A stretch of 64,000 bases of DNA from the NCBI GenBank assembly GCA_013287585.1, contig JABDDN010000006.1, forward strand, positions 1-64,000, written 5' to 3'. The DNA is from Nitrososphaerota archaeon (GTDB lineage Archaea > Thermoproteota > Nitrososphaeria > Nitrososphaerales > Nitrosopumilaceae). Positions 2,439 through 30,129 of this stretch are shown piece after piece. Position 1 is the stretch's first letter. Each line of letters begins with the position of its first letter. The notes under the pieces were generated by a model. That model saw only the letters and a list, made by a program, of their open reading frames with translations, was not told where the DNA came from and ran no database searches. The position numbers and the translations under genes were made by a program.

Positions 2439-3431
2439 TCATTTTTTAGCCTTCTTGATTTCTCGAGCTATCCTTCTTCCCATGCTCATAGGTTCATCAT
2501 AAAGGAATGTCGAATAAGGTGACCCGTCTACATACAGATTGGTACCTGCAACTATTCGTGCAGAAAACTCGAACGTGGTAAATTTTCCATTATCATCATA
2601 AACTCCTTCTAAACAAAACGGACCATTCATTCCAGGTGCAACGAGTCTTTTTGCTGTATCGACAAACCGTTCACCCATGGAATAGACTTCATCAAGAAGT
2701 GATTCTCTTAAGACCATTGGACTGTTTCCAATCACATTAAAAGATGGAATCAAATCAATATCCATTTGCTGTAGCGCTGGAATTCTTCCAAGTCCATCAA
2801 TATCTGATTCATATCTTCTATCTACTCCAAAAAACTCCAATTCTTCAGTCAATGGTGAATAAAAATATTGAAGATATGCTGATACTCCAAATGCATATTC
2901 TTGGAGATATAGATCATTGTCTCCTTTGATAATGCCTTGAGCAATTAACTTGTCACGTTTTTTGTTATAGTCTTTCTCACTTGTAGCCAAAAAATATCCT
3001 TTACCTCCAGCTGCTCCATGTCTTTTTGCTATCACTAGCGTACCGATATCTTTTGGATTATGAATTGTCTTGGGAACATTGAGATTTGATTCAACCATTA
3101 GTTTTTCTTTCATTTTTCTATCTGATTCCCATCTGAGTATCCATTTGTTGCCAAAAACTGGAATTTTAATTGATTCTATTTGTGATGAATTCATTTGAGA
3201 AATAAGTGTGCCATGTGGAATTATTATGGCGTCATCATCTTTTAGCTGTGATGAGCATTCTGATAATTCTGAAAACGTATCCACTAAGATTAATTTGTCT
3301 ATGAACTTAAATCTACGATAAAGTTTTTCACGTTTTTTTTCACATACAAGTATGGTCTTGAATCCTTCATCTTTTGCTCCCTTTAAGACCTGTAATGCAC
3401 AATGAGAACCAAGCGTAGCTATAGATGTCAT
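2439..3431 (-). CDS. purP: FAICAR synthetase PurP (formate-dependent IMP biosynthesis)
   Basis: A 330-aa ATP-grasp enzyme that converts AICAR, formate and ATP to FAICAR in archaeal purine synthesis, replacing the first activity of bacterial PurH. The N-terminal TLGSHCALQVLKGAKDEGFK, the central KRHGAAGGKGYFLA loop and the C-terminal EFSARIVAGTNLYVDGSPYS are PurP hallmarks. Length is close to the family norm. The ATG is at 3429-3431. It runs in the same direction as the small gene upstream (27-nt gap). Confidence 0.93.
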   Translation of the reverse strand: MTSIATLGSHCALQVLKGAKDEGFKTILVCEKKREKLYRRFKFIDKLILVDTFSELSECSSQLKDDDAIIIPHGTLISQMNSSQIESIKIPVFGNKWILRWESDRKMKEKLMVESNLNVPKTIHNPKDIGTLVIAKRHGAAGGKGYFLATSEKDYNKKRDKLIAQGIIKGDNDLYLQEYAFGVSAYLQYFYSPLTEELEFFGVDRRYESDIDGLGRIPALQQMDIDLIPSFNVIGNSPMVLRESLLDEVYSMGERFVDTAKRLVAPGMNGPFCLEGVYDDNGKFTTFEFSARIVAGTNLYVDGSPYSTFLYDEPMSMGRRIAREIKKAKK

Positions 3432-3457
3432 CTGTAATTTTCTTTATAGGCGGCTCT

Positions 3458-3673
3458 TTATGAAAGTTCCATGTATGAATTTGAAATAAAAGAAAATACA
3501 TCATCAATTAACTCCATTGATAATTCAGATCTCGAACTTTCAGGAATGGTTTTAAGAATAAAATCTATGACCGATTGGTTTTGAGGAAGAGTATCCTCTT
3601 GTAATTTTTGTGAATACAAGGTAATGGCGTTTGATATTGAAATGATCATTTTTTCCTTATTAGTAAGTGTCAA
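3458..3673 (-). CDS. Small hypothetical protein upstream of purP
   Basis: A 71-aa, mostly helical, slightly acidic protein that I do not recognise. The longest frame opens with TTG at 3673; the first ATG is 8 codons later (3649), preceded by an AT-rich stretch. It could share a transcript with purP. It has no cysteines, signal peptide or membrane helix. Confidence 0.5.
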   Translation of the reverse strand: MTLTNKEKMIISISNAITLYSQKLQEDTLPQNQSVIDFILKTIPESSRSELSMELIDDVFSFISNSYMELS

Positions 3674-3802
3674 TAATATACATAATTCTGTTTAATTTAT
3701 AGAGGTTTTGAAGGTGATTTAAAATCAAAATAGATATGAAAACTAGACCTTCTATCACAAAGTCCATATATTATTAATTTTGATATTCAAGATGGTACAA
3801 GT

Positions 3803-4315
3803 ATGGAAAAATTAGTGTATGGTAATCATACAAAATTAGTTATTATAAAAGATAAATCCATAATTTCCTTAATTCTTCATTCTTATGCTGATGAAGACAA
3901 GAAAAAAATTCTAAATATAACTGCAAACAAGCCGCGCATAATTTTAGATATCATAAGTGTATCAAAACTACCACAAACATCTTCTTATAGAAAAATTAAT
4001 TCGCTTATAAAAAATGGCTTGTTAATTCCAGACGGTGAAGTTCCAAGAAGATATGGAAAAATAGTAACAAAATATGTGTCCCTATTTGAGAATCTGGAAA
4101 TTAACATTATAAAAAATGATATTAGTGTTAAAGCAAAATTCAGTGAAGATGCATGTCAAGCTGTTTTTCGCATGATGCGTAAAAAAATTATAAACTTTAA
4201 AAAAGAAAATATGTTAAATTCAAAAAGTTATAATGCAGTTGAAACAGAATCTGTCATAATATCTTCTAATTCCATGATTCCATTTCTTATAAAAAATGGA
4301 GTAATCAAAGTTTGA
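3803..4315 (+). CDS. Putative winged-helix regulatory protein
   Basis: A 170-aa basic protein. Residues 35-85 fit a winged helix: NKPRIILDIISVSKLPQTSS, YRKINSLIKNGLLIP, then a wing with GEVPRRYGKIVTKYVS. The remainder is a small alpha/beta segment with no recognised family. It is monocistronic, in the same direction as aspS but 220 nt upstream. It resembles the ArsR-like wHTH proteins abundant in Thaumarchaeota. The effector is unknown. Confidence 0.65.
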   Translation: MEKLVYGNHTKLVIIKDKSIISLILHSYADEDKKKILNITANKPRIILDIISVSKLPQTSSYRKINSLIKNGLLIPDGEVPRRYGKIVTKYVSLFENLEINIIKNDISVKAKFSEDACQAVFRMMRKKIINFKKENMLNSKSYNAVETESVIISSNSMIPFLIKNGVIKV

Positions 4316-4536
4316 AATCAAGGGTTTTTGTAACAAATAATATTGACAACTCTTTTTTAATCTGAATCAAGATATATCAGCATACCCGACACAGGTACGT
4401 GGTTTAACTTGCTGGGATGAACTCTCAACAAGAACCACTTTTTATCCCTTTGAATGCCTGCATCTAATTTAAAACTACATGAATGTGTATTCAAAACATA
4501 AATTAACACTAAGTAGAACAGATTTGATGAAAAGGT

Positions 4537-5850
4537 TTGACAGACAATAATCTTGGAATTTGGCGTAGAACGATTTATTCAAACGAAATTAATCCTTCCA
4601 TGGAAGGAAAAGAAGTAATTGTGATGGGTTGGGTGTCTAGTGTAAGAGACCACGGAAATCTCATTTTTATGATGATTACTGACAAAAATGGGGATATTCA
4701 GATTACTGCTAAGAAAGGTGATTCTAGTGAAGAGTTACGACAAGAAATTGTAAAGCTAAAAGAACAATCAAGTATTGCCGTAAAAGGAACAATCAAACCT
4801 TCAAACAAGGCTCCACACGGTGCAGAGATTAGTCCTCTTGAAATGAAAGTTTTTTCTCAAGCAGAAAAGATTGCACCTTTTACATCACAAGCAAAAACTG
4901 TTGCCAATATTGATACTCGATTAGAAATACGTGCAGTAGATCTTCGAAGAAACATTTTACAACATGTTTTCAAGGCACGAAGTCTAGTTTTAAAATCAAT
5001 TCGAGACTATCTGTATGAAAAAGAGTTTGTCGAAGTAAATACGCCCAAAATGATTGCTACAGCTACCGAAGGTGGGGCTGCACTATTTCCGATATTTTAC
5101 TATAACAAAGAAGCATTTCTTGCCCAAAGCCCACAACTTTACAAAGAACAATTGACAATGAGCTTTGAGAAAGTTTTTGAAATTGCCCCTATCTTTAGAG
5201 CTGAACCTTCTAGAACAAATAGACATCTCTCTGAGGCTATTTCAATAGATCTAGAAGAAGCATTTGCAGATTACAATGATATTATGAAACACATTGAAAA
5301 TATAGTAAAACAAGTAGTACTGACAATACAAGATTATAATGAAAAATTAAACACTGATGTTAAATTTCAAACTCCAGAAATTTCTGATTCTATTCCACAG
5401 TACACATATTCTGAGCTAATTGAAAAGATGCAAAAAGCTGGAATAACTACTGAATGGGGAGACGATCTATATGCGTCTAATCTAAAAAAACTTAACATTA
5501 CAGGATTTTATTTCATAAAGGATTGGCCATTGGGCCCAAAGCCATTTTATGTAAAAGCAAAAGCAGATGACCCTAAATTATCAGAATCATTTGATTTTAT
5601 GTATGGTGATTTGGAGCTCTCATCTGGCAGTACCAGAATTGAAAAAAGATCTGATCTTGAGGAAAGAATGAAAAACAAAGGGTTTAAGCTTGACCCATTT
5701 GATTATCATCTCAGAGTATTTGATTATGGTGTTCCACCTCATGCAGGATGTGGAATTGGTCTTGAAAGATTGATGATGGCACTAACAGGGACAGAAAACA
5801 TTAGAGATGTAACATTTTATCCAAGAGACGTGGATAGACTCACACCGTAG
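4537..5850 (+). CDS. aspS: Aspartyl-tRNA(Asp/Asn) synthetase
   Basis: A 437-aa class IIb synthetase. An N-terminal OB-fold (GWVSSVRDHGNLIFMMITD) binds the anticodon. The catalytic core has motif 2 (FRAEPSRTNRHLSEA) and motif 3 (GCGIGLERLMMALTG). The archaeal/eukaryal length lacks the bacterial GAD insert. The start is TTG at 4537; a nearby ATG (4527) is out of frame. Placement directly ahead of gatC-gatA-gatB suggests a non-discriminating enzyme that also charges tRNA-Asn for GatCAB; this is inference. Confidence 0.93.
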   Translation: MTDNNLGIWRRTIYSNEINPSMEGKEVIVMGWVSSVRDHGNLIFMMITDKNGDIQITAKKGDSSEELRQEIVKLKEQSSIAVKGTIKPSNKAPHGAEISPLEMKVFSQAEKIAPFTSQAKTVANIDTRLEIRAVDLRRNILQHVFKARSLVLKSIRDYLYEKEFVEVNTPKMIATATEGGAALFPIFYYNKEAFLAQSPQLYKEQLTMSFEKVFEIAPIFRAEPSRTNRHLSEAISIDLEEAFADYNDIMKHIENIVKQVVLTIQDYNEKLNTDVKFQTPEISDSIPQYTYSELIEKMQKAGITTEWGDDLYASNLKKLNITGFYFIKDWPLGPKPFYVKAKADDPKLSESFDFMYGDLELSSGSTRIEKRSDLEERMKNKGFKLDPFDYHLRVFDYGVPPHAGCGIGLERLMMALTGTENIRDVTFYPRDVDRLTP

Positions 5851-15414: not shown

Positions 15415-16470
15415 ATGAGACGATCATTTGTTATGGCAATATTCCTCATGTTACTATTATCAGTCTATAGTTTTCATCAATCCTTTGCACTAGTAGAAGG
15501 TTTTCAACGAACTGATTTTAAGCTAGCACATAGTCCAACTATATGTGCAGTAGAACCCCTACCGGATCCGAATTTTCCTTCAATTGGAACTCGTATGCTT
15601 ACTCAAACTGAATATGCGACAATTGATTGGTCAACAAAATTAAATACATCACTAGGAACGCCTGCAAGTCATACTCCAATATGGAAAATTACACTTGTCA
15701 AAGTTTTTCTCTGGCAACAAAAAACATTTGATTATTCAAACTGTGATGTTATAATTAATTATAAAGAAAAACCTGATGATCCAAAATTACAAACTGAGAT
15801 AGGAGGAATAACGCAGTATGACTATGAACATCACAAGGCTACCATTCAAATTTATTATTTACAAGTTAATGTGAATGCAATACAAAATGAAACGCGTGAT
15901 GCAAATGTTATCTACACAACTACAAATTGGATCCCATACTATACTGGTAATGCGTTAGGTGACGCTCAACTTGGAATGATAATACGACATGAAATGGGTC
16001 ACGCGTTAGGCCTAGGTCATTTTCTTTCAGATAATCCGACCGATTTGTATCAATGGATCCATGGCTATACATCTCTTCCATCAATTATGATTCCAGTTGT
16101 TATTGCAATAGGAAATTCACATTTTGATATAACGCCCTATGACACATACGAAATCAAATTGATATATGGTAACAATGGGTTTGGTAACATACCTATACAA
16201 AACCCTGCATTAATCCCAGACTGGGTTAAAACTAGTGCTGGAGGATGGGCTAAAGGTTCGCTTGCAGATGGTGATTTTGTTAAAGGACTGCAATATCTTG
16301 TAAAACAAAAAATCATAAATGCTACTTTAATAGATCCTGCATCATCTTTTACACAAATTCCATCATGGATAAAAAATAATGCCAGATGGTGGACAGACAA
16401 GCAAATATCTGATAATGAATTTGTTAAAGGGATTCAATATCTAATTCAATATGGAATAATTAAAATCTAA
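15415..16470 (+). CDS. Secreted metzincin-type zinc metalloprotease with W-W-K repeats
   Basis: A 351-aa exported protein. The signal peptide is at about residues 1-26 (basic RR, then a hydrophobic stretch ending in SFA). The catalytic zinc motif HEMGHALGLGHF starts at His192 and fits HExxHxxGxxH of matrixin-like metzincins. The C terminus holds two copies of a 35-residue module: IPDWVKTSAGGWAKG from about 268 and IPSWIKNNARWWTDK from about 317, each ending FVKGxQYLxxxxII. Such modules recur in thaumarchaeal secreted proteins. It lies 2 kb upstream of the membrane-anchored metalloprotease at 20063. Confidence 0.85.
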   Translation: MRRSFVMAIFLMLLLSVYSFHQSFALVEGFQRTDFKLAHSPTICAVEPLPDPNFPSIGTRMLTQTEYATIDWSTKLNTSLGTPASHTPIWKITLVKVFLWQQKTFDYSNCDVIINYKEKPDDPKLQTEIGGITQYDYEHHKATIQIYYLQVNVNAIQNETRDANVIYTTTNWIPYYTGNALGDAQLGMIIRHEMGHALGLGHFLSDNPTDLYQWIHGYTSLPSIMIPVVIAIGNSHFDITPYDTYEIKLIYGNNGFGNIPIQNPALIPDWVKTSAGGWAKGSLADGDFVKGLQYLVKQKIINATLIDPASSFTQIPSWIKNNARWWTDKQISDNEFVKGIQYLIQYGIIKI

Positions 16471-17577: not shown

Positions 17578-17670
17578 CAAATATTAGCTTGTCCATAATG
17601 CTGACAAATTTGTATGTAAAACAGACACAAATGTAAGCGGAGCTTAATTGTTTTACCAACAATAAACTAT
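17578..17670. repeat. Duplicated 93-nt upstream element, copy A
   Basis: This stretch aligns without gaps to 19481-19573 with about 75 of 93 identical positions. Strong blocks are CAAATATTAG at the left, AAACAGACACA and ATGTAAGCG in the middle, and AACAATAAAC at the right. It ends one base before the ATG of the 36-aa membrane peptide. Both copies stand upstream of signalling genes, suggesting a shared promoter and operator, or a transcribed leader. Confidence 0.75.
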
Positions 17671-17783: not shown

Positions 17784-19430
17784 ATGAGCGTTTCAAAAAC
17801 ACAATCTAATGGTACTTACAATTTTCTTTTAGTATCTATTGTAGAGTCATCTGAAGATGCTATTTTGAGTATGGACATGGAGGGTATTGTTACCAGTTGG
17901 AACACTAGAGCTGAAAAAATGTTCGGATATTCAGCAAATGAGATTGTAGGTAAATCAATTCGTTTTATCTATCCAATAGACAAGGAATCTGAACTCGATG
18001 AGATCACTATTAAGCTCAAACAAAATGAACGTATTGAACATTTTGAAACAGAAAGAAAGCGTAAAGATGGAAGTCTAATAGATGTATCACTTAGTATATC
18101 ACAAATAAAAAACGAGAAGGGCAGTATCATAGGAATTGCAAAAATCATTCGAGACATATCAGGACAAAAACGTACATCCGCATATGCACGTAGTCTTATC
18201 GAAGCAAGTCTTGATCCACTAGTTACAATTAGTGCAAAAGGAAAGGTTACCGACGTAAACGAAGCTACAGTCAAGATTACAGGTGTACCAAGAGAGACTC
18301 TCATCGGTAGTGATTTCTCAGACTACTTTACAGAGCCAAAGAAGGCTCGTGAGGGATATGAGCATGTGTTTAAAGAAGGATTTGTCGCAGACTATCCTCT
18401 ATCTATTAGAAATTCATCTGGACAGATCACAGATGTACTTTACAACGCATCTGTCTATAAAGACGATAAAGGAAACGTGTTAGGTGTCTTTGCTGCAGCG
18501 AGAGATATAACTGAACGCAAAAAAGTAGAAAAATTACAAGCAGAACTCACTGACGCAAAAGAAAAAAAACAATTAGAAAAAACCGATGCAAAAGAAAAAA
18601 AACAATTAGAATATACTGACGAAAAAGAACGACTGCAATTAGAAAAAACTGACACAAAAGAAAGACTGCAATTAGAAAAAACTGATGCAAAAGAACTGTC
18701 AGAAAAATTAAAGGGGGTTGCAAAAGACGAGTTTTCTGCTATGGTAACCCATGAATTAAAAACACCGCTTGTACCAATAATAGGATACTGCAAGATGTTC
18801 AAAACATCAATGCTTGGCAGGTTGAACCAAGAACAGTTAGAAGCAATTGAAACAATAGAAAAAAATGCCAAAAGACTTGAGAATCTAATAACTGACATTA
18901 TGGATGTAAGAAAGCTTGATCTTGACCAGATGAAATTCCAAATAGATGATCTATCTCTGGATGAGTTTTTCTCTAATCTTGATTCTGACTATAAGAGGAT
19001 CTTAGAAAATAAAGGATGTCAGTTTACAACAAATCTATGTACCAAGAACCTAGTCTGTAAAACAGACAAAGCAAGATTAAGACAAGTTTTTGACAACCTA
19101 ATAAGTAATGCAATAAAGGTTATCCCAGAGAAAAAAGGAATGATTGAGACTGGTTGCATGAAAGAAAACAACAATCTTGTTTTTTATATAAAAGACAATG
19201 GTTTTGGAATACTGTCAGAAAAGCAAAAAGAACTTTTCCAAAAATTCTATCAAATTGATACGTCGGAAAGAAGATCTATAGGTGGAACAGGGCTTGGTCT
19301 TGCAATATCAAAAGGCATAGTAGAGAAACTTGGTGGCACTATCTCTGTTGAAAGTGACGGGAAGACAGGAACTACTTTTTACATGAAATTTCCGTTAGAG
19401 TTGAAAATAGTGCATAGTAATGTAATTTGA
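17784..19430 (+). CDS. Soluble PAS-PAS sensor histidine kinase
   Basis: A 548-aa kinase. PAS domain 1 spans about 10-130 (IVTSWNTRAEKMFGYSANEI) and PAS 2 about 135-255 (KVTDVNEATVKITGV). A charged coiled coil at 256-305 consists of 11-residue repeats. HisKA has H323 in MVTHELKTPLVPI. The ATPase has an N box (VFDNLISNAIKV), G1 (IKDNGFGI) and G2 (GGTGLGLAISKGI). No membrane segment is present, so it senses cytoplasmic cues or acts with the 36-aa peptide. The likely partner is the receiver at 19678. Confidence 0.92.
   Translation: MSVSKTQSNGTYNFLLVSIVESSEDAILSMDMEGIVTSWNTRAEKMFGYSANEIVGKSIRFIYPIDKESELDEITIKLKQNERIEHFETERKRKDGSLIDVSLSISQIKNEKGSIIGIAKIIRDISGQKRTSAYARSLIEASLDPLVTISAKGKVTDVNEATVKITGVPRETLIGSDFSDYFTEPKKAREGYEHVFKEGFVADYPLSIRNSSGQITDVLYNASVYKDDKGNVLGVFAAARDITERKKVEKLQAELTDAKEKKQLEKTDAKEKKQLEYTDEKERLQLEKTDTKERLQLEKTDAKELSEKLKGVAKDEFSAMVTHELKTPLVPIIGYCKMFKTSMLGRLNQEQLEAIETIEKNAKRLENLITDIMDVRKLDLDQMKFQIDDLSLDEFFSNLDSDYKRILENKGCQFTTNLCTKNLVCKTDKARLRQVFDNLISNAIKVIPEKKGMIETGCMKENNNLVFYIKDNGFGILSEKQKELFQKFYQIDTSERRSIGGTGLGLAISKGIVEKLGGTISVESDGKTGTTFYMKFPLELKIVHSNVI
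18549..18695 (+). repeat. 33-nt tandem repeat (about 4.5 copies) encoding coiled-coil linker
   Basis: Units begin at 18549, 18582, 18615, 18648 and 18681. Each encodes a version of TDAKEKKQLEK in the same frame, changing to KERLQLEK in later units. The period of 33 nt (11 residues) fits a hendecad coiled coil in the signalling helix between PAS2 and HisKA. Copy-number changes would rotate the helix phase. Confidence 0.85.
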
Positions 19431-19480
19431 TGGCTACATGTTCATATGCTCCAGCGAAATATGGAATCAGTTGATATTTC

Positions 19481-19573
19481 CAAATATTAGATTGGTCACA
19501 ATATTGACAAATTAGTACATGAAACAGACACAGATGTAAGCGCGACTTAATAGCTTTAGCAACAATAAACTAA
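19481..19573. repeat. Duplicated 93-nt upstream element, copy B
   Basis: The partner of 17578-17670, about 80 percent identical without gaps. It ends about 104 nt before the response regulator ATG (19678). No homologue of the 36-aa peptide follows it: after the shared block the sequence diverges. It probably carries the promoter of the regulator/protease pair. Confidence 0.75.
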
Positions 19574-19677
19574 CAGTGACATTAGAATCATGGAAAATAA
19601 CATTACCTGCAGGAGATTTTGAGTTTTATGACCAAACTCATAATGCAGTTTAGTACAAAAATTGGAAAGAACTTGTT

Positions 19678-20052
19678 ATGAAAATTCTCATCATTGACGA
19701 TAATGAAGATATTTCAAAAATGTTCTCCAAGTATATGACGATTAAAGGACACTCGTGTTCTGTTGTCAATGATGGCCGAAGTGGTCTTAACCTGATTGAG
19801 AATCAGGCATTTGATGCAATCATACTTGACATTGCTATGCCAGAATTTTCAGGTCGTGATGTTATAGATGAATTGCATAAAAGCGGAAAAATAAAAAACC
19901 AAAACATCGTAATATTGACGGCATCTGCAATGACATATGATGATGAATCAATGCTGAAAAGCAAAGGAGTTCGTTTATGTTTGAAAAAACCAATCGATCC
20001 AGACATTCTCTTGGATCAGATACAACTGTTTGAAATTAAAAAAACAATGTGA
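19678..20052 (+). CDS. Single-domain response regulator (CheY-like receiver)
   Basis: A 124-aa receiver with no output domain. The acidic pair is Asp7-Asp8, the phosphoacceptor is Asp51 (IILDIAMPEFSG), the conserved Thr is in VILTASA and the Lys in LKKPID. The stop lies 10 nt before the ATG of the HisKA-metalloprotease gene, with GAGG at 20051-20054 as the likely ribosome site. Its neighbours suggest transfer of phosphate between the kinase at 17784 and the fusion protein. Confidence 0.92.
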   Translation: MKILIIDDNEDISKMFSKYMTIKGHSCSVVNDGRSGLNLIENQAFDAIILDIAMPEFSGRDVIDELHKSGKIKNQNIVILTASAMTYDDESMLKSKGVRLCLKKPIDPDILLDQIQLFEIKKTM

Positions 20053-20062
20053 GGATATTTCA

Positions 20063-21451
20063 ATGAAAGACACTCACTTAATTCGTGAAGCCCAGCAGAT
20101 CAAACTGTTGGCGGATAGAATAGCGAAAGTAATTGAATCTGACAATGATAAACTCCAAGATAAATTAAATCAAAAAATTGAAAATATAGATCAGCTTAAT
20201 AACACAGTAAGAAACTTTCTGGAAGTAGTTTCCTCAAAAAAAACAATCACTAGTGAATTTTTAACAAAAATTCATCATGAGCTTAGGTCCCCTCTAGTGC
20301 CAATCCTAGCATATGCCGACATGCTTTTGGATTCCAAATATGGTTCAATATCAGATGAGCAAAGAAAACGACTAGAGATTATAAGCTCTAGCACAAAAGG
20401 ACTGGTACAAACAATACAGGATCTTTTTAATAAAAAAACCTTTGATGTAACATCAGATAATCTTGATACAGGCAAAGACCATAAAATCAACGAACTAGGA
20501 CAGGAAAAGAAGATCCTAGATAGAATAAACACTGCTCTTTCTGATGATCTGGATAAAACTAAAAAAGAAAATGTCAAGATTAAAAAAGACTTGGCAGACG
20601 GTTATCACAAAATAAAAGAAAGAGAGCAAGAGAATCTGTTTGCCTCAAAGAGTGCACAAGACGAGCAGGAAAAGAATTTTCATTTACAAAAAAAACATTA
20701 CATTTCCATTGTAATGATTGCAGTACTGGTCTCAGGAGGATTTGCATTTTATTCTTATTACGAAAATCAAGTGTTGTTAAGTACAACATCTTATCTGTTG
20801 AAAAATTACAGCTCTAATTATCTAATACAAAACTTGCAGGGTGATACAGTAAATACCTGGGTATCTTGGCGTCTTGTCACTGGACAAACACTACATATTA
20901 ACATCATAAACGAGGCCAATTTATCTCCAGACAAAATATTTGCAATAAAAGATGCCATCTTATCCACACAGACAGTAACTCTTGATGATTCATTATTGCA
21001 CAAAGGACCACCTGGTACATCATCAGTCTACTACAAGGGATGGGAGGGAGCATTAGATACAGCATCTGCACAAACCACACAATTTTACATACCTGAAAAA
21101 TTTGATATAGCTGACTCTTCAGGTGGAGTAGGCGAGATTCTAATCAAGCTTACAAATGATCAAAATCCAGATGGATTATCAGGGTACACAAAATCAATTG
21201 CAGATGGTAACCAGATATTAAAAACTACCATAACAATATTTAATGCAGGCCAGCTTTCAGCAAACCAGCTTGGTGCCATAACAAGACACGAGTTTGGTCA
21301 TGCAATGGGATTGGCTCACTCTAGTGCACCAGAAGACCTAATGCATGCTACTATTCAAACAGAGTATCCGTACATTTCAGGTTGTGATATTGATGCAATA
21401 AAGGGGTTGTACAACGGTGACGAAAAGAGTCAGGTAGTATGCAAAAAATAA
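20063..21451 (+). CDS. HisKA-like domain fused through one membrane helix to an external zinc metalloprotease
   Basis: A 462-aa protein. I use the ATG at 20063, with GAGG 8 nt upstream; a frame from 20030 would overlap the preceding gene. Residues 1-60 are a coiled coil. Residues 64-125 are HisKA-like with HHELRSPLVPILAYADMLL (acceptor His72). Residues 135-210 are a charged coiled coil, and about 212-233 one membrane helix (YISIVMIAVLVSGGFAFYSY). From 234 a beta-rich outer domain carries HEFGHAMGLAHS from His409, a metzincin site. There is no ATPase (no N, G1 or G2 box). It may receive phosphate from another kinase and change protease activity outside; this is inference. Confidence 0.85.
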   Translation: MKDTHLIREAQQIKLLADRIAKVIESDNDKLQDKLNQKIENIDQLNNTVRNFLEVVSSKKTITSEFLTKIHHELRSPLVPILAYADMLLDSKYGSISDEQRKRLEIISSSTKGLVQTIQDLFNKKTFDVTSDNLDTGKDHKINELGQEKKILDRINTALSDDLDKTKKENVKIKKDLADGYHKIKEREQENLFASKSAQDEQEKNFHLQKKHYISIVMIAVLVSGGFAFYSYYENQVLLSTTSYLLKNYSSNYLIQNLQGDTVNTWVSWRLVTGQTLHINIINEANLSPDKIFAIKDAILSTQTVTLDDSLLHKGPPGTSSVYYKGWEGALDTASAQTTQFYIPEKFDIADSSGGVGEILIKLTNDQNPDGLSGYTKSIADGNQILKTTITIFNAGQLSANQLGAITRHEFGHAMGLAHSSAPEDLMHATIQTEYPYISGCDIDAIKGLYNGDEKSQVVCKK

Positions 21452-28773: not shown

Positions 28774-29178
28774 CTAATTGATGTATTGTGCTATTCTATC
28801 AATTATTTCTCTCTTCTTTACTGGTTTCATTACAACTGTTTTTGCACCTAATTTCTTGAGTGTACTGGCATCCTGATTGGGTGGTATGTTGGCAGTGACT
28901 ACAACAATTTTGGCATTAGACGCATTCGGTTCTTTTTTTATTTTCTTGATCAACACTATTCCATCTGCTAACAGTTTGATCTGCTGGGCTTCACGAGTTT
29001 TGTGGGTGTCTTCTACCGAAGTATCAAGCAAGACTAGCTCAAATTTGCTCTTCTTTATATGTTCTAATGCCTTCTCATCTTCATACGTAATGGCGCAATT
29101 ATGTCCTACAGAATCGATGATGGTTTTATACATATCTCCAATGTCTTTCTGATAATCAACAACTAATACATTGCCCAT
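28774..29178 (-). CDS. Divergent response regulator with a 17-residue inserted motif
   Basis: A 134-aa receiver. Asp52 (VLLDTSVED) is the acceptor, MKPVKK holds the conserved Lys and VVVTAN the Thr. The usual acidic pair is Asp8-Tyr9, with one acid missing. After Asp52, residues 57-73 (DTHKTREAQQIKLLADG) form an insert not typical of receivers. The insert nearly equals the N terminus of the metalloprotease fusion at 20063, also in DNA. It stands alone, divergent from the next island. Confidence 0.85.
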   Translation of the reverse strand: MGNVLVVDYQKDIGDMYKTIIDSVGHNCAITYEDEKALEHIKKSKFELVLLDTSVEDTHKTREAQQIKLLADGIVLIKKIKKEPNASNAKIVVVTANIPPNQDASTLKKLGAKTVVMKPVKKREIIDRIAQYIN

Positions 29179-29688: not shown

Positions 29689-30129
29689 ATGATCATCAAT
29701 GACAAAAATGAATCAATAACTGCGATAGTTGTTGACGATGACATTGATACACTAGATGTCTTCTGCGAATATCTTGAACTTTCCAAATTTAGAATTGTAG
29801 GTAAAGCACATAACGGCGAAAAAGTAGCAGAATTATATTCAACCTTCAAGCCAGATGTAGTTTTTCTTGATGTGATGATGAATAACTATGATGGCATATA
29901 TGCACTAGAGCAAATAAGGAAAGTAAATCCTGATGCTGTAGTGATAATGGTCACAGCAGATCTTACAAAAGAAACAGCCAAGAATCTAGAACGTTTACAC
30001 GCATCATCTATAATTTACAAGCCATTTGATATAAAAAACGTAATAAGTACTGTAGAGAACATTATTGGCAAACAGAGACACAATAACTCTATTTCCAAAC
30101 AATCAAGCCAAGTGGTGTGTCAGATATGA
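29689..30129 (+). CDS. Response regulator receiver, paralogue of the preceding gene
   Basis: A 146-aa receiver, no output domain. The acidic residues are Asp16-18, the acceptor is Asp61 (VVFLDVMMNNYDG), the Thr is in MVTADLT and the Lys in IYKPFDI. It keeps the C-terminal helix (VISTVENIIGKQ) absent from its neighbour. The gap to the previous gene is 5 nt, and its end overlaps the next gene. It is part of an operon to 33442. Confidence 0.92.
   Translation: MIINDKNESITAIVVDDDIDTLDVFCEYLELSKFRIVGKAHNGEKVAELYSTFKPDVVFLDVMMNNYDGIYALEQIRKVNPDAVVIMVTADLTKETAKNLERLHASSIIYKPFDIKNVISTVENIIGKQRHNNSISKQSSQVVCQI

Follow-up and report, generated by a model that had tools for sequence, protein, structure and literature searches.

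A DHp-linked, membrane-anchored matrixin as a candidate output of a stand-alone receiver in Nitrosopumilaceae

Architecture and predicted fold of the protein

Here we describe a gene cluster within a 64,000-nucleotide stretch of DNA (the window) from an archaeon of the Nitrosopumilaceae. The cluster lies on the forward strand and opens with a sensor histidine kinase of 548 amino acids (aa) at 17784–19430, the presumed input, for which Pfam gives a PAS-PAS-coil-HisKA-HATPase arrangement (PAS_9; HisKA, 58.7 bits; HATPase_c, 90.3 bits). It is followed by a stand-alone receiver (REC) of 124 aa at 19678–20052 (PF00072, 70.1 bits), whose active-site residues D7, D8, D51, T81 and K104 are invariant in 16 orthologues, and by a gene at 20063–21451 that encodes a 462-aa protein composed of a HisKA (DHp) domain, a coiled coil, one transmembrane (TM) helix and a matrixin domain (Pfam, relatives and AlphaFold2 model). 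A 92-nt intergenic element upstream of REC (19481–19572, forward strand) is 82% identical to 17578–17669 upstream of the kinase gene; the repeat may represent a promoter or regulator-binding element common to both genes. The kinase linker encoded at 18527–18728 contains five 33-nt (11-aa) repeats, which make up a coiled, signalling-helix-like segment preceding the kinase DHp.

The 20063–21451 reading frame is intact, with an ATG start 10 nt past the end of the receiver gene and no internal stops. Its N-terminal helix (aa 1–25, MKDTHLIREAQQIKLLADRIAKVIE; 20063–20137) is common to winged-helix (wHTH) proteins that occupy the corresponding position in sister operons and includes E9, which is invariant in all 17 fused proteins described below. 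The HisKA match (PF00512, aa 64–121; 44.5 bits, cut-off 26.9) falls in the DHp hairpin (aa 64–128; 20252–20446), where the H-box HELRSP contains the predicted phospho-acceptor His72 (20276–20278). A cytosolic coiled coil (aa 141–211; 20483–20695) leads into the single TM helix (aa ~212–232; 20696–20758), beyond which lies the extracellular matrixin (M10) domain (aa 245–462; 20795–21448), with a PF00413 match at aa 398–450 (36.1 bits, cut-off 24). The zinc motif HEFGHAMGLAH (H409–H419; 21287–21319) follows the pattern HExGHxxGL[AG]H found in 77 of 78 homologues, and the Met-turn DLM (21335–21343) is invariant as D425-L426-M427 in the 17 fused proteins, the pattern being present in 70 of 77 homologues. 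No HATPase_c/CA domain was detected by Pfam in the entire 462 aa, and the protein does not qualify as a histidine kinase. NCBIfam matched it only to DHp segments of kinases, at scores far under the cut-offs.

Every feature that the first-pass annotation had listed for this protein is thus present in the sequence and by Pfam (an HHELRSPLVPI motif with H72, a coiled coil, one TM helix, HEFGHAMGLAH and no ATPase domain), and the kinase and REC genes stand beside it as described there. The same annotation placed the protease outside the cell, and the charge distribution around the hydrophobic helix agrees: K/R residues are concentrated ahead of it (family mean 4.0 before versus 0.6 after; 69 of 74 proteins biased), which indicates an N-in/C-out topology with the protease facing outward.

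Structure prediction from 17 sequences was unusable (pLDDT 52.5). An alignment of 122 sequences, comprising the window protein, its relatives, separate DHp proteins and kinase DHps, yielded an AlphaFold2 monomer model with an overall pLDDT of 81.7. In this model, the DHp hairpin is formed by helices 64–89 and 98–128 (pLDDT ~80–87), the coil and membrane span constitute one unbroken helix (141–242), and the ectodomain is mostly at pLDDT 90–98. Foldseek matched the modelled ectodomain to the catalytic domains of MMP-2, -7, -9 and -13 and to karilysin (5.6e-06 for MMP-2; target TM up to 0.69 for MMP-13 and 0.67 for karilysin). The ectodomain is accordingly modelled with the MMP catalytic-domain fold, and domain search and modelling, both of which had been proposed as checks, bear out the HisKA and M10 assignments above their cut-offs, with the DHp hairpin as well as the MMP fold. 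Motifs and fold together suggest matrixin proteolytic activity.

With matrixins, MMPs and the bacterial karilysin (PF00413), the protein has in common HExxHxxGxxH, the Met-turn and the catalytic-domain fold. It differs from them in having an N-in anchor attached to a cytosolic signalling domain and in its want of a cysteine-switch propeptide: the sequence from the TM helix to the zinc motif contains zero Cys. The only cysteines of the ectodomain, C441 and C460, are both invariant in the 17 fused proteins and are consistent with an external disulphide.

Distribution, linkage and exchange of the gene behind the receiver

Relatives were sought in 250 genomes of the family and 400 of the class (the two sets partly overlap), and full-length relatives were confined to the family. 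They comprise 17 fused proteins from 16 genomes and five genera, including the single-contig genomes G023 and G223. The zinc ligands, Met427, both cysteines, E73, P77, P80 and I81 are invariant among them, and H72 is conserved in 16 of 17. The architecture thus recurs with the same neighbours, as the first-pass annotation had asked: REC lies directly upstream in 15 of the 17. That annotation had also named a frameshift or an assembly join between two halves as what would overturn its reading. The window genome is fragmented (1.35 Mb in 47 contigs, 77% complete), which would favour an artefact or a fusion decaying in one genome. However, the intact architecture in 15 other genomes, two single-contig ones among them, already refutes a frameshift or join, and we consider an origin of this kind next to impossible.

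Linkage to REC extends beyond the fused proteins. Among the 79 TM-matrixin homologues in the loci analysed, the gene immediately ahead on the same strand is a REC in 48, and a kinase lies within 4 kb in 45 (15 of 17 in either case for the DHp-fused subset). The outer neighbours of the REC–protease pair vary among genomes, so that the linkage amounts to more than simple conserved gene order. Kinase sensors differ as well, being PAS-PAS in the window and dCache, CHASE3 or HAMP elsewhere; REC and protease persist. Most TM-matrixin homologues are DHp-less, and many of these retain REC; Nitrosotalea genomes such as that of 'Ca. Nitrosotalea devanaterra' have the DHp-less form behind REC. Some homologues have no REC nearby. 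Of the 34 matches of a REC profile at 155 bits or above, 29 lie by hand count in a protease cluster (13 of 18 once the 16 profile members are set aside); because only RECs linked to a protease went into the profile, its best matches are biased. Positions H+7, H+11 and H+12 of the DHp (V, A, Y; V, G, Y in the adjacent kinase) were considered as determinants of REC-partner specificity and rejected, since PLVPI..Y is common in the kinases of these genomes.

The gene behind REC is not always a protease. The RECs nearest to that of the window (73–76% aa identity) are found in G178, G039 and G188, where the next gene encodes a winged-helix protein of 111–122 aa (HTH_45 above cut-off). This protein opens with the same helix as the protease (MKDTHTIREAQQIKLLENRIAKIIK versus MKDTHLIREAQQIKLLADRIAKVIE in the window), and winged-helix relatives without an adjacent REC have no such helix. 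In G178, the kinase and REC are 82% and 76% identical in aa to those of the window, and 17810–19470 and 19676–20133 of the window have 86% DNA identity to this genome. The 19676–20133 segment is 85.8% identical in DNA to locus L166, and the match ends right past codon 24 of the protease gene. Closely related kinase–REC pairs are thus coupled to either a winged-helix protein or a protease, both bearing the helix, which we read as marking the third gene as the output of the receiver. The N-terminal helix is a candidate receiver-reading element; it could instead be the footprint of recombination rather than a docking module, and a related 70-nt copy does lie within another REC-like ORF (below).

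Several smaller observations were made around these genes. Stretches resembling the 92-nt repeat surround the kinase–REC–wHTH operon of G178. Clusters with several paralogous HTH_45 winged-helix proteins, of the kind that takes the place of the protease after REC, are found at G223:C1:772112-776719, G216:C16:68832-73891 and L168. On the reverse strand of the window, a REC-like ORF (28774–29178) holds at 28956–29025 a 70-nt inverted copy (83%) of 20054–20123; this copy corresponds to the protease's N-terminal helix (EDTHKTREAQQIKLLADGI) and is placed after the strand that bears the phospho-Asp and before the following one. A REC gene at 29689–30129 (forward strand) ends in ...SSQVVCQI, resembling the matrixin C-terminus KSQVVCKK. 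The syntenic place in L038 (G236) has a REC-linked CC-TM-matrixin gene, and such a gene looks to have been cleanly lost from the window, leaving a scar. At L044, an ORF on the reverse strand (3282–5222) encodes a multi-membrane-helix protein of 646 aa, whose matrixin-like C-terminus has no zinc motif and which is a possible pseudo-protease; it lies beside an intact homologue.

Lineage and conservation of the DHp

In a tree of 89 DHps, the 26 that are linked to proteases (17 fused, 9 encoded separately) form one clade (support 99/83), distinct from the 63 kinase DHps. On this tree, the DHp has changed from fused to separate or back at least four times; with the 87 columns used, the inner branching order is rough. 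Separate DHp genes encode a small protein and occur in several genomes, and one counted among the nine, in G040 (L145), is a frameshift-broken fused gene. In G014 and G033, which belong to different genera, REC is followed by a DHp-only and a CC-TM-M10 gene; the cut falls at the identical place in both, and the genes are translationally coupled. At least six gains or losses are needed to account for the fused state on a tree of the ectodomains. The window protein is itself a mosaic: its N-terminal half has its nearest match (72% aa identity) in G240, where the DHp is encoded separately, and its ectodomain in L038 (79%), where a protein from the same genus has no DHp.

The acceptor position in the 26 protease-linked DHps is His in 24 and Asp in 2. 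Position H+1 is Glu in 22, Asn in 2 and Lys in 2; H+4 is Thr in 23, Asn in 2 and Ser in 1 (the window protein); and Pro occupies H+5 in all 26. Compared with a mean top-residue frequency of 0.55 over the cytosolic part, the H-box stands out (His 24/26, T/S/N 26/26 and Pro 26/26). The two variants with an Asp acceptor, L063 (8606–9871, reverse strand) and L147 (3559–3951, reverse strand), read DELRNP and DKLRNP, both with Asn at H+4. Four DHps without the acid at H+1 and two without the His suggest that the protein can do without autokinase-type chemistry; these losses could still leave docking or phosphatase action in place.

These patterns bear on what the DHp is for. It might be a dimerisation module, taken over from elsewhere, that gathers protease molecules close to the kinase and receives no signal from REC: coiled coils and DHps each dimerise in known proteins, and the DHp has been gained or lost several times. 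However, H-box residues, which lie at the surface of known DHp structures, are here among the best conserved of the cytosolic part and should not persist in a DHp kept for dimerisation alone. Dimerisation would preserve neither these residues nor the adjacency of REC, and we find this account distinctly unlikely.

Alternatively, the DHp could serve as a phosphate sink or as a REC~P phosphatase that tunes the kinase–REC pair, with the protease domain sensing or anchoring and the signal running inward. The HisKA motif E/D-x-x-T/S/N and the Pro are retained in nearly all members, the Asn (two) or Lys (two) at H+1 of split DHps is what would be expected if autokinase chemistry were unneeded, and a phosphatase role has been suggested for archaeal HisKA proteins without HATPase (Galperin et al., PMC5847659). 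But a stand-alone REC would then be left with no output encoded alongside; sister operons have a DNA-binding protein in the same slot; DHp-less homologues retain the REC–protease linkage; and anchoring needs no strictly conserved active zinc site. This reading is, on balance, an unlikely one.

A phosphorelay was also considered, in which REC~P would pass its phosphate to His72 and from there to another stand-alone receiver, with the membrane and protease parts only localising the protein. The H-box is complete, PhyT of Sphingomonas does this (PMC5898713), and REC-only proteins are numerous in these genomes (PMC5847659). However, most clusters have no second conserved receiver, two members have lost the His and kept the rest, and the zinc site is retained in 77 of 78 homologues, which together make a relay very unlikely.

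A candidate inside-out switch and its precedents

We therefore favour an inside-out two-component switch whose output is a membrane-anchored metalloprotease, to which we assign a probability of roughly 0.6. The kinase encoded at 17784 would phosphorylate the stand-alone receiver encoded at 19678, which, as a free-standing response regulator, would dock on the cytosolic part of the co-encoded protease, formed by the N-terminal helix and the DHp dimer. Docking of REC or REC~P would alter the DHp/coiled-coil dimer, and phosphate might at the same time be transferred to His72 or removed by way of it. The change would then be relayed outward along the unbroken coil and the one membrane-spanning helix, and would alter the activity of the extracellular matrixin or its access to surface substrates. 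The family is of the ammonia-oxidising type, and the receiver and kinase genes immediately ahead suggest a sensor switching an outside protease from within. A more specific version, in which a response regulator acts across the membrane, with REC controlling an MMP-like ectoenzyme of the same polypeptide through DHp docking or phosphotransfer and with interchangeable protease and DNA-binding outputs sharing a receiver-reading helix, has in our estimate slightly less than an even chance.

The switch is supported by the architecture, the topology bias, the intact motifs of REC, DHp and protease, the linkage and adjacency of the genes and the modular exchange of outputs. Binding of REC to the protease, the direction of signalling and the choice between activation and inhibition are what we infer beyond these; operon linkage by itself leaves the direction unfixed. 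The DHp is dispensable to the system. Most REC-linked TM-matrixins have none, and there REC would have to work through the coil; as coil and TM helix would carry the signal alone in these homologues, the DHp may be an extra layer for docking rather than the core. Phosphotransfer onto His72 is possible and not required, given the two members without the His and the many without a DHp. Non-covalent docking of REC in the manner of DivK–DivL, or phosphatase action, would fit the data at least as well. Of the inside-out switch put forward in the first-pass annotation, coupling to the adjacent receiver and the outward direction are supported (REC adjacency in 48 of 79; the output slot), and transfer of phosphate onto the cytosolic His is no more than possible (Asp in 2 of 26 DHps, the acid at H+1 lost in four, most homologues DHp-less yet many of them with REC); direct phosphorylation of the His by the adjacent kinase is the version with the least support. 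The genomic case for a receiver-controlled ectoprotease is firmer than that annotation could know, with phosphotransfer to the His optional.

Each step of the mechanism appears, by analogy, to have its own separate precedent. Reversed flow from a response regulator to a pseudokinase is known from DivK–DivL of Caulobacter (PMC5361649), in which a single-domain REC likewise passes its state to a non-kinase protein of the histidine-kinase fold. DivL differs in that it has the whole fold and acts on CckA inside the cell, whereas only the DHp is present here and a protease outside the cell is the presumed effector; with the CA domain absent and the acceptor His present, as opposed to the full fold with CA and a non-His acceptor of DivL-type proteins, the likeness is one of analogy only. 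PhyT/PhyP of Sphingomonas (PMC5898713) are membrane phosphotransferases with a conserved His that takes phosphate from a single-domain response regulator, as His72 might do here; PhyT, unlike the present protein, hands the phosphate on to PhyR, and no protease domain is described for it. In GacS–RetS, DHp binding alters an extracellular domain (PMC12148439), but both are full kinases and the extracellular part is a sensor rather than an enzyme. LapD–LapG (PMC3032553) provide an example of a cytosolic state governing extracytoplasmic proteolysis through a membrane protein, although the input is c-di-GMP and the protease, as a passage of PMC4359373 has it, is a separate protein recruited by LapD. 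The archaeal proteins that have HisKA but not HATPase (Galperin et al. 2018, PMC5847659) share the conserved His and the missing HATPase; by contrast, they are reported mainly in Archaeoglobi and Methanomicrobia and have N-terminal PAS/GAF sensors with a C-terminal HisKA, and neither 'protease' nor 'peptidase' occurs in the main text of that study. Searches of the open-licence literature turned up no description of a protease attached to a DHp; the candidate output of this two-component system is without precedent there.

About 75% of thaumarchaeal response regulators are REC-only, and most of these lie outside conserved neighbourhoods, so that their functions could not be inferred in the 2018 census (PMC5847659). 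For one such receiver family, the present analysis provides a partner that is conserved and a specific candidate output that can be tested, namely an enzyme on the cell exterior. If correct, the switch would be a post-translational two-component output that acts across the membrane and needs no transcription. It would also offer a first lead to controlled proteolysis at the surface of archaea that are central to nitrogen cycling; our guess for the substrate is surface-layer or envelope proteins. The natural variants (DHp fused, separate or missing, His replaced by Asp, winged-helix protein in place of protease) provide a ready set for the dissection of DHp signalling. The window also encodes, at 15415–16470 (forward strand), a second metzincin-like protein (Peptidase_M66, 23.9 bits, cut-off 20.6), which bears the motif HEMGHALGLGH and what looks like a signal peptide and has neither receiver nor DHp.
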